A DNA stretch of 64,000 bases from Microbispora catharanthi (GTDB lineage Bacteria; Actinomycetota; Actinomycetes; Streptosporangiales; Streptosporangiaceae): assembly GCF_006334915.2 (NCBI RefSeq), contig NZ_VDMA02000001.1, positions 62,001 through 126,000 of the forward strand, in the 5' to 3' direction. A program made the translations under genes and the position numbers. Below are positions 54,955 through 62,714 of this stretch, one piece after another; position 1 is the stretch's first letter, and each line of letters opens with the position of its first letter. The notes below the pieces were generated by a model. That model did not search any database, was not told the DNA's origin, and was given only the letters and a program-made list of their open reading frames with translations.

Positions 54955-55533
54955 GTGAAGGAGAAGGCGGCCGAAGGCCCCCGGACGAGGGTGCGACGCC
55001 CCCAGCGCGCCGACGCGCGGCGCAACTTCGACGCGCTGCTCGCCGCCGCGCGGGAGGCGTTCGCCGAACACGGCACGGCGGCCTCGCTGGAGGACATCGC
55101 CCGGCGCGCCGGCGTCGGCATCGGCACGCTCTACCGCAACTTCCCCACGCGGCAGGACCTGTTCGACAGCGTCTACCTGGACGAGATCGACGAGCTGTGC
55201 CGCGCCGCGGGGCAGGTCGCCGACCTGCCGCCGTGGGAGGCGCTGGCCGCCTGGCTGCGCCGGTTCGTGGACTACGCGGCCACCAAGCGGGCCATCTACG
55301 AGGCGCTCAACCGCGACTCGGAGATGATGCGGTCAAGCCGGACCGCCATGTACGAGGCGGGGGAGCCGCTGTTCGACCGGGCGAGGGAGGCCGGGGAGGT
55401 CCGCGGCGACGTGACCTTCGACGACGTCCTGCGGATGATCTCCGGCATCACCGGAGGCGGGTTCGTCGACGACGACCAGCGTGAGCGGGTGCTGGCCATG
55501 GCCCTCGACGGCGTCCGCTCCCGCCCGGCCTGA
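54955..55533 (+). CDS. TetR-family repressor of the MFS-SDR operon
   Basis: A 192-residue regulator: ADARRNFDALLAAAREAFAEHGTAASLEDIARRAGVGIGTLYRNFPTRQDLFDSVY is a textbook TetR DNA-binding domain, followed by a TetR_C33-like ligand domain. Start GTG 54955 follows GGAGGAAG. It is divergent from the MFS transporter, with two operator palindromes 24-62 bp upstream of its start, implying autoregulation and control of efflux. A terminator hairpin follows. Confidence 0.93.
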   Translation: MKEKAAEGPRTRVRRPQRADARRNFDALLAAAREAFAEHGTAASLEDIARRAGVGIGTLYRNFPTRQDLFDSVYLDEIDELCRAAGQVADLPPWEALAAWLRRFVDYAATKRAIYEALNRDSEMMRSSRTAMYEAGEPLFDRAREAGEVRGDVTFDDVLRMISGITGGGFVDDDQRERVLAMALDGVRSRPA

Positions 55534-58600: not shown

Positions 58601-59309
58601 TGCCCAGGAAGCCGGAGGTGCTGTTGCGGTCGGAGTGCATGACCGCGGCCAGGTCGATCTGGGCGGTGGTGCTGCCGATGGCCACGCCGTTCACGTAGTA
58701 GGTGAGGGTCCTGCCGTCGATCGTGGTGACGAGGTTGACCCACTGACCGGTGGGCAGCTTCTGCGCGCCCGGCACCCCCACCTCGGCGCTGCCGTTGACC
58801 GGCTTGATGGACGATCTCGTGGTGGCGTCACCGGCGTAGGACGGGGTGACGAAGGTGGCGGTCGCGGCGTCCTTGCCGAGGTTGTAGACCCACTGGAAGT
58901 CGGCGCCGCCCGCCCACTTCAGCCACGTGGAGATGGTCATGGCGTGGCGGTCGCGGAACAGGCCGTTCGGGATCGTCACGTAGGGGGCGGTCGCCGAGCC
59001 GGTCGGCCCGCCGGGCAGCGACAGGGCCTGCGTGCCGTCGGGACCCGCGGCGGTTTTGGCCGAGCCGGGGTTGGCCAGGGCCCCGTCGAGGCCGGAGGGG
59101 GAGAGGTCCTCGATGACGCCGCTCGACAGGTCGCCTTCGAAGTCGTAGTGGAGGACGAGCGCCGGTGCGTCGGCGCTCTGGGTCGATGAGGCGAGTGCCG
59201 GTAGGGCGGCGAGGGGGATCGCGGTCATCGCGAGGGCGGAGGCGAGAACGGTGTGAGGCGCGAGCCTGCGTGCTCGCCCGGACAAGGGTACGGCCATGCG
59301 CTGTCCCAT
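55611..59309 (-). CDS. Secreted LamG / clan-A glycoside hydrolase / CBM6 protein
   Basis: A 1232-residue secreted enzyme. Signal peptide (HTVLASALAMTAIPLAALPALASS), then a LamG/concanavalin-like domain (~50-270: LHYDFEGDL, MTISTWLKWAGG, DDFRVYDAAMNAEQVAELAG). A bacterial Ig-like linker follows (~285-350), then a TIM-barrel glycosidase (~355-720) with the acid/base motif FVPFNEPEGN (Glu ~478) and the probable nucleophile NLDEYAF (Glu ~595), as in clan GH-A, closest in feel to GH39. CBM6-like jelly rolls (YEAEDAGHTG, YEAEYATLDG, YEAESAHVAG) fill the C-terminus. Start at 59309 lacks a ribosome site; ATG 59297 has GGGACAG. It is divergent from a sugar ABC operon with matching operators. The polysaccharide is unknown. 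Confidence 0.82.
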   Translation of the reverse strand: MGQRMAVPLSGRARRLAPHTVLASALAMTAIPLAALPALASSTQSADAPALVLHYDFEGDLSSGVIEDLSPSGLDGALANPGSAKTAAGPDGTQALSLPGGPTGSATAPYVTIPNGLFRDRHAMTISTWLKWAGGADFQWVYNLGKDAATATFVTPSYAGDATTRSSIKPVNGSAEVGVPGAQKLPTGQWVNLVTTIDGRTLTYYVNGVAIGSTTAQIDLAAVMHSDRNSTSGFLGKAFWGGHPFLAGDLDDFRVYDAAMNAEQVAELAGDRKAALTKVEQTSFEITTYPGTAPALPATVNAQFSDGIRRGVPVTWEAVDPAGYAKPGQFTVKGTAYGTTVEATVKVVANDLTIDLGTETGAFHGGASGTLYGVNGEGVPTSNLLEGMRLRTVATKAQDGPQHPGADALEVVKPLADSTGGDVYIYMTDIYRGFPYQWPGDTPEARLDDFKAKIAKQVDQVLKLDPKYQDHIVFVPFNEPEGNMFGTGTWSYNKINWLSDPQYYFKAWDEVNALIKGKMPKARIAGPNTSVLYDQVQGFLRHAVQAGTVPEVMTWHELGDPARIRTNVAKYRQWEQAIFTGTPYEGRQLPINLDEYAFNYHTSVPGQMVQWASAIEESKVDADIAYWNIDGNLSDSAVQANRGNGQWWLLHAYGQMTGDTVKVTPPRPNVSYTLQGVATLDKAKAQARALFGGASGLVGIHFDNVDTALFGRTGFGGTGFGGTGFGGTVHALIQEIPWTGQIGDSPQPRVVAELNQKVTDGSVTFEFGSALPALKESSAYQIILTPGEGGASGTPATTLWQATYEAEDAGHTGAGYSRNGPEGTPSDVGKFYTSGGYDVGGLRTGSDVTLNFPVSVPQDGTYDLSVFANSLNTYGAVQEQGPTNVFLRVDGKDERELHLPLGYKWVVWDHTDTKVTLSKGDHTITLAARSLDGTRATKGDALVDKIDLTLANPAASQAVYEAEYATLDGASTDYSEKKVSGSGVADLRKGQSATFWVYSPGDGESTLRVDLRGGGKGTLTVNGQDIAEPSGSSKVKAFLSGGVNKITYVARTGRVRLDRLRVEKTEGALTPAWYEAESAHVAGAAKVAAYPLASDGKAVTDIGGAPGNANTLTFDVAAPRNGTYALTVRYSNPEQSPASHYNPDPLARHAEISVNGATPRRAWFPHSFHADNFWELTIPVQLKKGANTVAFASRELPNFDGDTYISETFPDILLRSKYAPIIDKIAVTPIAK
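57133..57177 (-). repeat. Three tandem 15-bp repeats in the glycosidase gene
   Basis: On the plus strand the unit CCGAACCCCGTGCCC is repeated three times (the last differs at two bases). On the coding strand it gives GFGGT three times, inserting a flexible loop in the barrel after the predicted nucleophile. Confidence 0.85.
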
Positions 59310-59345: not shown

Positions 59346-59405
59346 CGAATCGATTCGGCGAATCGATTCGACTGGACGATAAGCAGGGTGCCGCGAAACG
59401 GTCAA
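59346..59405 (-). promoter_or_regulatory. Promoter and double operator of the large glycosidase gene
   Basis: On the minus strand, TTGACC (59400-59405), an 18-nt spacer and TATCGT (59376-59381) form the promoter. Directly downstream lie two perfect copies of CGAATCGATTCG (59346-59357 and 59359-59370) separated by one base, together a 27-bp palindrome. A repressor bound there would block the transcript start. LacI-type binding is inferred. Confidence 0.8.
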
Positions 59406-59556
59406 GGGCCCGAAACCCTCCCGGCACGTCATCGTCACCTCGTCGTCACGCGCCGGCGCATGTCACGGCCCGCACCGGACGACGGCACCGCGAGCCCGGG
59501 AAGCCGCACCGAGCACGCCGACGCCGACGTCTCCGCAAATCGTGCCGCGCATCCCA

Positions 59557-59614
59557 TTGACGCATGCGACGGACCGGGCCTATCGTCAGCGAACCGATTC
59601 GCCGAATCGGTTCG
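59557..59614 (+). promoter_or_regulatory. Promoter and double operator of the sugar ABC operon
   Basis: TTGACG (59557-59562), an 18-nt spacer and TATCGT (59581-59586) form a promoter almost identical to the divergent one. Three bases later CGAACCGATTCG (59590-59601) and CGAATCGGTTCG (59603-59614) form a 25-bp palindrome around one base. This is the same design as at 59346-59370, so both transcripts very probably answer to one repressor. Confidence 0.8.
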
Positions 59615-59662: not shown

Positions 59663-60943
59663 ATGAGACCAGGGTCAAGCGGCCGGCGTGCGGCCGGGAT
59701 GGGTGCGGCGGTCCTCGCGGCCGCCGCCGGGCTGGCCGCCTGCTCGTCGCCGTCCGACGGCACCGGCGCTCCCTCGGCGGGCGCGAGCCAGGCCGCCGCC
59801 GGGGGCGGGACCTACACGATCTGGGATCCGTATCCGCAGTACGACAAGAGCTCCGACTGGGTGAAGCTGCTGGAGTCGTGCGGCACCCAGGCGGGGGTGA
59901 AGGTCGAGCGGACCGGCTACGACACCAGCGACCTGACCAACAAGGCGCTGCTGGCGGCCCAGCAGGGCAACTCGCCGGACGTGCTGATCGTGGACAACCC
60001 GGTGGTCTCGACGCTGGCCGAGGCCGGCGTGCTGACGACGACCGAGGAGAACAAGCTCGACGTCACGTCGATCGCGCCGAACCTGCTCGCGGCGGGCCAG
60101 CTCGGCGGCAAGACGTACGGGGTCCCGATCGGGGCCAACACCCTCGCCCTCTATTACAACAAGGGGGTGTTGAAGAAGGCCGGCGTGGACGCGGCCGCGG
60201 TGAAGGACTGGGCGTCGCTGACCGCGGCGCTGGAGAAGGTGAAGGCGGCGGGCAAGAAGGGCATCACGTTCTCGGCGATCGGCACCGAGGAGGGCAGCTT
60301 CCAGTTCCTGCCCTGGTTCTGGGGCTCCGGCGCGAACCTCACCAAACTCGACTCACCCGAGGGTGTCTCCGCGGTGGCCCTGTGGGCCGACTGGCTCAAG
60401 AAGGGCTACGCGCCCAACTCGGTCATCAACAACACCCAGACCACGAGCTGGCAGGAGTTCGCGACCGGGGACTTCGCCTTCGCCGAGAACGGCACCTGGC
60501 AGCTGGCCAACGCCAAGAAGACCGGCTTCGACTACGGCATCATCCCGATCCCCGCCAAGGACGGCGGCACCGCCCCCGCCCCGACCGGCGGCGAGTTCGT
60601 CAGCATCCCGGTGCAGTCGGACACCGCACGCTACGCCACCTCCCAGAAGCTCGTGAGCTGCCTGACCAGCACCGAAAACTCACTGGCGACCACGACCACG
60701 CTGTCGTACATCGCGCCGACGGAAGCGGTGCAGGCCAAGCAGGTCGAGCAGAACGCCGAGCTCGAGGTGTGGGTGGCGGCGGTCAAGGCGGCCAAGGGCC
60801 GCACCAGCGACAACCTCGGCACGAAGTATCCGAAGATCTCCGAGCCGATGTGGGGCGCCGTGCAGGCGGCGCTGAGCGGTTCCACGGCTCCGCAGGAGGC
60901 GATGGCGGCGGCGCAGTCGGCGGCGGCGAGCGCGACCCAGTAA
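59663..60943 (+). CDS. Sugar ABC transporter substrate-binding lipoprotein
   Basis: A 426-residue family-1 extracellular solute-binding protein. The lipobox is LAACSSPSD with the lipidated Cys at about residue 27. Core motifs include GTYTIWDPYPQYDKSSDW, LLAAQQGNSPDVLIVDNP, GKTYGVPIGANTLALYYNKGVLKKAG, WQEFATGDFAFAENGTWQL and TGGEFVSIPVQS. It captures an oligosaccharide at the membrane surface and delivers it to the two permeases encoded downstream. Start ATG 59663 follows GGAGG. No ATPase gene is included, as usual for actinobacterial sugar ABC operons that share MsiK. Confidence 0.93.
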   Translation: MRPGSSGRRAAGMGAAVLAAAAGLAACSSPSDGTGAPSAGASQAAAGGGTYTIWDPYPQYDKSSDWVKLLESCGTQAGVKVERTGYDTSDLTNKALLAAQQGNSPDVLIVDNPVVSTLAEAGVLTTTEENKLDVTSIAPNLLAAGQLGGKTYGVPIGANTLALYYNKGVLKKAGVDAAAVKDWASLTAALEKVKAAGKKGITFSAIGTEEGSFQFLPWFWGSGANLTKLDSPEGVSAVALWADWLKKGYAPNSVINNTQTTSWQEFATGDFAFAENGTWQLANAKKTGFDYGIIPIPAKDGGTAPAPTGGEFVSIPVQSDTARYATSQKLVSCLTSTENSLATTTTLSYIAPTEAVQAKQVEQNAELEVWVAAVKAAKGRTSDNLGTKYPKISEPMWGAVQAALSGSTAPQEAMAAAQSAAASATQ

Positions 60944-61911
60944 TGAGCATGAGCCGAGTGACACGAACGCCGGTGCGTACCGCCCGCGCCCCCGTCCCCG
61001 CTCAGGGGCGGGAGCGCCGGGCGGCACGCACTCGATCGGGGCAGTGGGCGGCGTGGGCGTTCCTCGCCCCCGTCGTCGTCTACCTGCTGATCTTCTACGC
61101 CTATCCGCTGTATCGCAACGTCGAGCTGAGCCTGCGCAACTACACGGTGCGCTCGTTCGTGCAGGGGGACGCGCCGTTCGCCGGATTCGCCAACTACGCC
61201 AAGGTGTTCGCCGACGCCACCTTCGCCCCGGCGCTGTGGCACACGATCGTGTTCACGGTGGTGTCGCTGGCCTTCCAGTTCACCATCGGGCTCGCCCTGG
61301 CCGTGTTCTTCAGCCGGAACTTCCGGCTGTCCGCCACACTGCGCGCGCTGTTCCTGGTGCCGTGGCTGCTGCCGCTGATCGTGTCCGCCTCGACCTGGTC
61401 GTGGATGCTCAACAGCGACTCCGGCGTGGTCAACGCCGCCCTGAGCTGGGCCGGCGCCGGCCCGGTCAACTGGCTGACCTCACCCGACTGGTCGCTGTGG
61501 TCGGTGATCATCGCGAACATCTGGATCGGTATCCCGTTCAACCTGGTCGTGCTCTACAGCGGTCTGCAGGCGATCCCCTCGGCGGTGTACGAGGCGGCGG
61601 CGCTGGACGGGGCCGGTGCCTGGCAGCGGTTCTGGCGGGTGACCTTCCCGCTGCTGCGTCCCGTGTCGGCGATCACCGTCCTGCTGGGGCTGGTCTACAC
61701 GCTCAAGGTGTTCGACATCATCTGGATCATGACCAAGGGCGGGCCGAGCGGGTCCTCCAGCACGTTCGCCACGTGGTCCTACCGGCTGGGCTTCGGCAAC
61801 CTCGTGCCCTCCTTCGGCCCCGGCGCGGCGGTGGGCAATCTGCTGATCCTCATGGCGCTGGCCTTCGGGCTCGTCTACATCCGCGTGCAGCGACGGCAGG
61901 CCGCGGCATGA
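60943..61911 (+). CDS. Sugar ABC transporter permease (MalF-like)
   Basis: A 322-residue permease with six membrane helices (WAAWAFLAPVVVYLLIFYAYPLYRNVELSLRNY and so on) and the cytoplasmic EAA loop YEAAALDGAGAWQRFWRVTFPLLRPV that contacts the ATPase. Its ATG overlaps the last base of the binding-protein stop (TAATG). It pairs with the next gene, which it overlaps by ATGA. Confidence 0.94.
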   Translation: MSMSRVTRTPVRTARAPVPAQGRERRAARTRSGQWAAWAFLAPVVVYLLIFYAYPLYRNVELSLRNYTVRSFVQGDAPFAGFANYAKVFADATFAPALWHTIVFTVVSLAFQFTIGLALAVFFSRNFRLSATLRALFLVPWLLPLIVSASTWSWMLNSDSGVVNAALSWAGAGPVNWLTSPDWSLWSVIIANIWIGIPFNLVVLYSGLQAIPSAVYEAAALDGAGAWQRFWRVTFPLLRPVSAITVLLGLVYTLKVFDIIWIMTKGGPSGSSSTFATWSYRLGFGNLVPSFGPGAAVGNLLILMALAFGLVYIRVQRRQAAA

Positions 61912-62714
61912 GGCGGCTCAAGACCGCCGTCGGGCTGGCGCTGACGGCCGTGATGCTGTTCCCGGTCTACTGGATGGTCAACGTGTCGTTCACGCGGGAC
62001 CAGGACATGCGCAAGTCGCCGCCGTACTGGTTCCCCGTCCACGGCACGCTGGAGGGGTACCGGGCGGTGCTGGAGCGGCAGTTGCCCTACCTGGGGGTGA
62101 GCCTGGTCGTCGGGCTGGGCACCGTCGCGCTGACCCTCCTGATCGCCGCGCCGGCCGCGTACTCGCTGGCCAAGCTGCGCCCGCGCGGCGGCGGCGTGCT
62201 GAGCTTCGTGCTGCTGATCGCGCAGATGATCCCGGGGATCATCATGGCGATGGGCTTCTACGCCATCTTCCTCACCACCGGCGTGCTCAACACCGTTCCC
62301 GGACTGATCGTGGCCGACTCCACCCTCGCGGTGCCGTTCGCCGTGCTGATCCTCACCGCGTTCATGTCCGGCATTCCCGAGGAGCTGCTGCAGGCGGCCC
62401 GGGTGGACGGCGCCGGGGTGATGCGCACGTTCGTCTCGATCGTGCTGCCGGTCTCCCGTAATTCGATCATCACGGTCTCCCTGTTCGCGTTCCTGTGGGC
62501 CTGGTCGGACTTCGTCTTCGCCTCCACCCTCGACCAGGGCGGCGCCCATCAGCCGATCACGCTGGGGATCTACCACTACATCGGCAACAACAACCAGGAG
62601 TGGAACGCCATCATGGCCACCGCCGTGGTCGCCTCCATCCCGGCCACCGTTCTGCTCATCGTCGCCCAGCGTTATGTCGCCGCAGGCGTCACCGCCGGCG
62701 CCGTCAAGGACTGA
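61908..62714 (+). CDS. Sugar ABC transporter permease (MalG-like)
   Basis: A 268-residue second permease: ALTAVMLFPVYWMVNVSFT, YRAVLERQLPYLGVSLVVGLGTVALTLLIAAPAAYSLAKL, and an EAA loop EELLQAARVDGAGVMRTFVSIVLPVSR. It forms the transmembrane heterodimer with the upstream permease. The ATG overlaps the preceding stop. A 27-bp gap follows before the glycosidase gene. Confidence 0.94.
   Translation: MRRLKTAVGLALTAVMLFPVYWMVNVSFTRDQDMRKSPPYWFPVHGTLEGYRAVLERQLPYLGVSLVVGLGTVALTLLIAAPAAYSLAKLRPRGGGVLSFVLLIAQMIPGIIMAMGFYAIFLTTGVLNTVPGLIVADSTLAVPFAVLILTAFMSGIPEELLQAARVDGAGVMRTFVSIVLPVSRNSIITVSLFAFLWAWSDFVFASTLDQGGAHQPITLGIYHYIGNNNQEWNAIMATAVVASIPATVLLIVAQRYVAAGVTAGAVKD

Follow-up and report, generated by a model that had tools for sequence, protein, structure and literature searches.

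Divergent mirror-image promoters of Microbispora catharanthi with double palindromic operators, and a LacI-type gene preceded by the same site

According to the portion of a 2014 survey drawn on here (PMC4052901), the motifs of LacI-family regulators are mostly even palindromes with a central CG, and the distances between their sites peak at 13, 22, and 32 bp. In the same portion, a spacing of approximately 13 bp is described upstream of 110 operons, the tested case cited being E. coli GntR at gntKU, and dimers placed 13 bp apart are held to be unable to interact in the available structures, with which the spacing is hard to reconcile. Obligatory double LacI-family sites are also described there for RafR and ScrR, but these lie 21-22 bp apart, i.e., two turns and one face of the helix, whereas the 13 bp described below amount to about 1.24 turns and would set the two sites about 85 degrees apart (arithmetic, with 10.5 bp per turn). 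The double palindromes at two divergent promoters of Microbispora catharanthi are a clean further case of this known 13-bp class, within a regulon that is itself ordinary; the first-pass annotation regarded two dimers side by side 13 bp apart as an unusual operator design, a view that gives way before the 110 operons already collected in the survey (PMC4052901). As far as that portion of PMC4052901 goes, the even palindromes with a central CG, the conservation in orthologues, and the association with sugar genes are shared with the surveyed class, while the present doublets differ in that both palindromes are exact in the 45 doublets of the family and in their fixed placement after the -10 element. 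The lineage (actinobacteria of the Streptosporangiaceae and Micromonospora types) and the LacI subfamily are different too, and go unnamed in section 9 of the survey. Neither CGAATCGATTCG nor CGAACCGGTTCG was found in a search of 5.39 million articles under open licence, and the literature search returned no system closer than that of PMC4052901.

In the window (the whole stretch of 64,000 nucleotides that was analysed, corresponding to C11:62001-126000), each of the two promoters is followed by two copies of a palindrome with the consensus CGAAYCGRTTCG, separated by one base. On the + strand, the promoter of the ABC operon consists of a -35 TTGACG (59557-59562) and, after an 18-bp spacer, a -10 TATCGT (59581-59586), 3 bases before a double operator at 59590-59614 that is composed of CGAACCGATTCG (59590-59601), a C, and CGAATCGGTTCG (59603-59614) and is palindromic across its full 25 bp. 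On the - strand, the glycosidase promoter has its -35 TTGACC at 59400-59405, again an 18-bp spacer, its -10 TATCGT at 59376-59381, and, 5 bases further on, a double operator at 59346-59370 formed by two copies of CGAATCGATTCG (59346-59357 and 59359-59370) with centres 13 bp apart. The letters and coordinates of both promoters and the tandem palindromes one base apart on each side are those of the first-pass annotation, whose distance of three or four bases after the -10 element has to be corrected to 3 bases for the + strand and 5 for the - strand. Promoters of the form TTGACG/TTGACC-18 bp-TATCGT were found twice, whereas 50 shuffles gave 0.0 on average, and the 12-bp operators are even palindromes with a central CG, like those of the LacI/GalR family. 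The genome-wide search for the doublet that had been proposed in that annotation returned, with up to three mismatches allowed, no copy beyond these two in the 9,249,895 bases of the genome; the pattern in reverse, used as a control, gave 0 matches in the same search.

The leftward promoter precedes the gene of a secreted, multi-domain glycosidase-like protein, P0003 (55611-59309, - strand; 1232 aa from the ATG at 59309, with a second possible ATG at 59297). Searches of Pfam, NCBIfam, and PDB sequences assigned to it Laminin_G_3, Big_4, and CBM_35 domains and a catalytic middle part matching the PDB entries 5u22 (titled "N2152") and 8uwt ("Possible beta-xylosidase diverged, family 5/39"); 5u22 is an enzyme of the GH39 type whose substrates are arabinosyl sugars. 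Between the catalytic part and the CBM-like parts of P0003 lies a short internal repeat, RTGFGGTGFGGTGFGGT. The rightward promoter precedes, all on the + strand, the genes of a sugar ABC substrate-binding lipoprotein (SBP_bac_8; 59663-60943, with GGAGG 8 bases upstream of the start), of two ABC permeases named from their place and sequence (60943-61911 and 61908-62714), and of an MGH1-like glycoside hydrolase (PF22422; 62742-64000, extending 464 bases beyond the window), which closes the operon and is followed by CGAATCGATTCG and then by a LacI gene.

That gene, P0001 (C11:126518-127525; 335 aa, GTG start), begins 518 bases past the end of the window, encodes PF00356 and PF13377 domains above cut-off, and has CGAATCGATTCG at C11:126472-126483, 34 bp upstream of its GTG. 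The first reading was right that the window itself contains no LacI-type gene, since the only two of the 40 LacI HTH matches of the genome that are on this contig (C11:39368-39505 and C11:126524-126658) lie outside it; its prediction of a LacI-family gene whose own promoter carries the site is borne out by P0001, and its proposal of mirror-image promoters with LacI-type operators is supported accordingly. E. coli LacI carries a C-terminal tail for tetramerisation, whereas P0001 ends 4 residues after its Peripla_BP_3 match (match end at residue 331 of 335) and has no such extension, and a looping LacI tetramer was rejected. A paralogue, P0002, 61% identical to P0001 over 333 residues, is encoded on the 7.7-kb contig C50 in the surroundings of a glycosidase-like gene (P0005) and three further 12-mers. 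P0005 matches ricin-type lectin chains solely through its carbohydrate-binding beta-trefoil. A near-identical copy of its gene at G000:C22:205750-207180 (L049:3250-4680) encodes residues 1-477 with 99.4% identity, has one CGAATCGGTTCG about 87 bp upstream, and has arisen either by duplication in recent times or through the assembly of the short contig C50.

The genome contains 13 exact 12-mers: four form the two doublets, one precedes the lacI gene, three are on C50, three (C22, C54, and C67) are located some 60-90 bp upstream of genes with the glycosidase or the sugar-binding domain of P0005, and two (C5 and C33) are inside long ORFs, where they may have arisen by chance. The distribution of the motif is non-random: 11 of the 13 copies precede lacI, ABC, or glycosidase/CBM genes. 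A search for other 13-bp palindrome doublets within 1.5 kb on either side of 30 of the 40 LacI genes, requiring a perfect first palindrome and hence missing imperfect ones, found none; the sole pair was at 30 bp, with none at 12-29 bp, which shows that the doublet design is not general in the source genome. For annotation, the gain is a defined sugar regulon with its operator, comprising two LacI paralogues, one ABC transporter, and several glycosidases.

From the sequence, promoter layout, conservation, and spacing of the sites and their tie to a LacI subfamily, we infer as the likely mechanism that LacI-type repressors recognise CGAAYCGRTTCG and block both promoters until an inducing sugar binds, with the doublet accommodating two dimers. 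Specifically, CGAAYCGRTTCG would be recognised by P0001, and probably by its paralogue P0002. In the absence of inducer, the repressor would occupy the doublets, whose first base is 3-5 bases from the -10 element and which thus cover the predicted transcription start, and would block initiation both at the gene of the secreted glycosidase and at the operon of the ABC transporter. Sugar released by the glycosidases and imported by the ABC transporter would then bind the repressor and free the two promoters together. Most likely, two dimers occupy the doublet simultaneously, which would tighten the repression of the structural genes, while single sites remain at lacI itself and at several outlying glycosidase genes.

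The tie to LacI was assessed in 341 genomes of the family, searched for two 12-mers with 0-30 bases between them. The survey returned 49 pairs in 35 genomes, belonging to 10 of 68 genera; the gap was 1 base in 45 pairs, so that a centre distance of 13 bp is conserved in orthologues, 0 in two (G007 and G214), 20 in G107, and 22 in G099. The LacI subfamily, defined by at least 52% identity to P0001 (the next matches are at most 44% identical), is encoded in 65 of the 341 genomes, including 33/33 of those with a gap-0 or gap-1 pair, and is absent from G107 and G099; Fisher's test gives 4e-28 for the association, a value that overstates the certainty because related genomes are treated as independent. 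Conversely, 32 of the 65 subfamily genomes are without an exact gap-0 or gap-1 pair. By tblastn, the doublets precede the ABC binding-protein gene or P0003-like or P0005-like genes and, in many genomes, separate the ABC gene from a lacI gene of opposite orientation; for 2 of the 45 family doublets (L103:10717 and L119), none of these queries matched within 900 bp. In G099 and G107, copies of CGAATCGATTCG are paired at 34 and 32 bp, respectively, in a ATTCGTCGAATCGATTCG-like context (L101:9909-9954 and L102:9999-10042), and these wide-gap pairs probably serve another regulator. Further single 12-mers lie just before or after lacI in many family loci (e.g., L085:8638, L086:11065, and L105:11343), pointing to additional regulon members.

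The regularity of the spacing was also evident in 87 fetched loci (1.37 Mb), selected for such pairs or for the LacI subfamily. They contain 253 exact 12-mers and 51 pairs with starts no more than 60 bp apart, of which 45 are at 13 bp, 2 at 10, 2 at 12, 1 at 32, and 1 at 34; in the same loci, none of six permuted palindromes formed a pair, and the number of their exact sites was 0-7. At offset 13, the partner is exact for 108 of 279 distinct sites and has 1-3 mismatches for 14, the rest being background-like, while at offset 14 none of the 279 has a partner with up to three mismatches. The second palindrome is thus a both-or-none element, nearly perfect or absent. The position of the doublet relative to the promoter is constrained as well: 53 of 58 gap-1 doublets (45 of the family and 13 from other named genomes, among the matches listed) are placed 3-6 bases downstream of TTGAC(C/G/T)-17/18-TANNNT, a promoter score reached at 30 of 20,000 positions drawn at random from the family loci and at 65 of 145 isolated 12-mers. 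The doublets without a strong promoter are 2/45 in the family and 3/13 in the named genomes (L100, L119, L207, L228, and L264); L207, L228, and L264, which matched nothing but LacI proteins of about 30% identity, were scored as misses in this count and excluded from the half-site counts below.

Relatives in which the same promoter has only one palindrome bear on whether the two are occupied together. In 14/14 relatives picked among the 32 subfamily genomes that have no exact gap-0 or gap-1 pair, the ABC promoter carries the promoter-side CGAACCGATTCG alone, followed by an A, which makes the second palindrome dispensable in these relatives. Single-palindrome ABC promoters occur in six relatives of the same genus as the source; the single site of L185 is followed by a C, and five relatives have a partner palindrome with 1-2 mismatches. 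The same ABC promoter thus has one palindrome in some genomes and two in others, having gained or lost a unit of 13 bp. The existence of orthologous promoters with one palindrome is compatible with a doublet that offers alternative registers to one LacI dimer at a time, the pair raising the local affinity or allowing the dimer to hop; likewise, the contact zones extend approximately 7 bp from each centre in both directions and abut at the middle base, and interaction between dimers at a distance of 13 bp is held to be impossible in the portion of PMC4052901 drawn on here. A mere statistical gain would, however, need no single spacing, yet 45 of 49 pairs have a gap of 1 where 31 gaps were allowed, and the offset-13 partners are nearly perfect or absent, so that occupancy by one dimer at a time is possible but doubtful.

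Other features of the doublets hint at a closer arrangement of the two dimers, namely the A kept after single sites, the freedom of the middle base in doublets (A 4, C 22, G 16, and T 11 of 53), and the bias of CGAAT half-sites towards inner positions (88/106 inner, 48/106 outer, and 215/314 isolated), a bias to which the outer half on the side of the promoter contributes much (T in 15/53), in counts that take related genomes as independent. We tentatively consider, as a minority view, that the doublet could be one unit read by two interlocked LacI-family dimers, a mode absent from solved LacI-DNA structures, in which, for instance, the DNA between the two centres would be locally unwound. If this were true, adding or losing the 13-bp unit would switch a promoter between loose and tight repression. 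Near-perfect doublets, single-palindrome relatives, and a defined repressor together offer a model for the question of whether 25 bp can accommodate two dimers, and in what way.

Recognition of the 25-bp element as one long palindrome by another factor, such as a pair of TetR-type dimers, with the LacI link incidental, is highly improbable. Paired dimers of the QacR kind are known among TetR proteins, the element at 59590-59614 is palindromic as a whole, and a TetR gene is present at 54955-55533; but this gene adjoins an MFS transporter gene, the lone 12-mer precedes lacI genes and outlying glycosidases, and the LacI subfamily accompanies the doublet in 33/33 genomes. The TetR gene is probably not tied to the sites, and this reading was rejected. 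Least probable of all is a role of the doublet in the transcript, as a 5' hairpin setting mRNA stability or attenuation, which was rejected as the main reading because, although both leaders fold into a hairpin of 9-10 pairs and a terminator scan returned a 13-pair stem on the - strand, palindromes fold trivially, the folding energies are ordinary (z -0.65, with 51/200 shuffles as good, and z -1.79, with 13/200), the orthologous promoters with a single palindrome have no hairpin, and the pairing of the whole doublet is lost in 7/54 doublets (type CT|TT).

Outside the family, a scan of named genomes returned at least 119 stretches and, as a sample of the spacings, at least 82 pairs in at least 80 loci, with a gap of 0 in at least 1, 1 in at least 19, 2 in at least 12, 3 in at least 11, and other values in at least 39. 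The gap-1 loci are at least 18, five of which (L200, L218, L246, L268, and L278) duplicate family genomes and were counted once; among the matches listed, they belong to Micromonospora, Asanoa, Rhizocola, Peterkaempfera, one Streptomyces (S. tateyamensis, with P0005-like genes), and family members, and in three more listed loci (two Streptomyces and one Nocardioides) the LacI subfamily is absent from the stretch. In Streptomyces, orthologues of the regulon have a LacI protein 61-62% identical over the full length, where complete, and orthologous SBP and GH genes, but in 11 loci among the matches listed the sites are CGAACCGGTTCG (with one CGAATCGGTTCG) and lie 27-40 bp apart. Microbacteriaceae and relatives share the half-site, and their 12-mer doublet is located 47-103 bp upstream of a LacI-family gene in 10/12 loci among the matches listed; these doublets differ in having a gap of 2 (14 bp), with AT between the palindromes in 11/12 of the same listed loci, and the adjacent LacI proteins are only 27-32% identical to P0001/P0002. 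The gap of 2 and the spacings of 27-40 bp found elsewhere indicate that the 13-bp spacing is a habit of the lineage and not a need of the half-site. The 14-bp doublets that directly precede a LacI-family gene are in L205, L224, L225, L229, L231, L232, L236, L244, L256, and L270, and in the 9 of these 10 loci in which it was resolved (all but L231) the recognition helix, compared by eye, reads STASLAFSG, as opposed to STVSYALSG in the present system.
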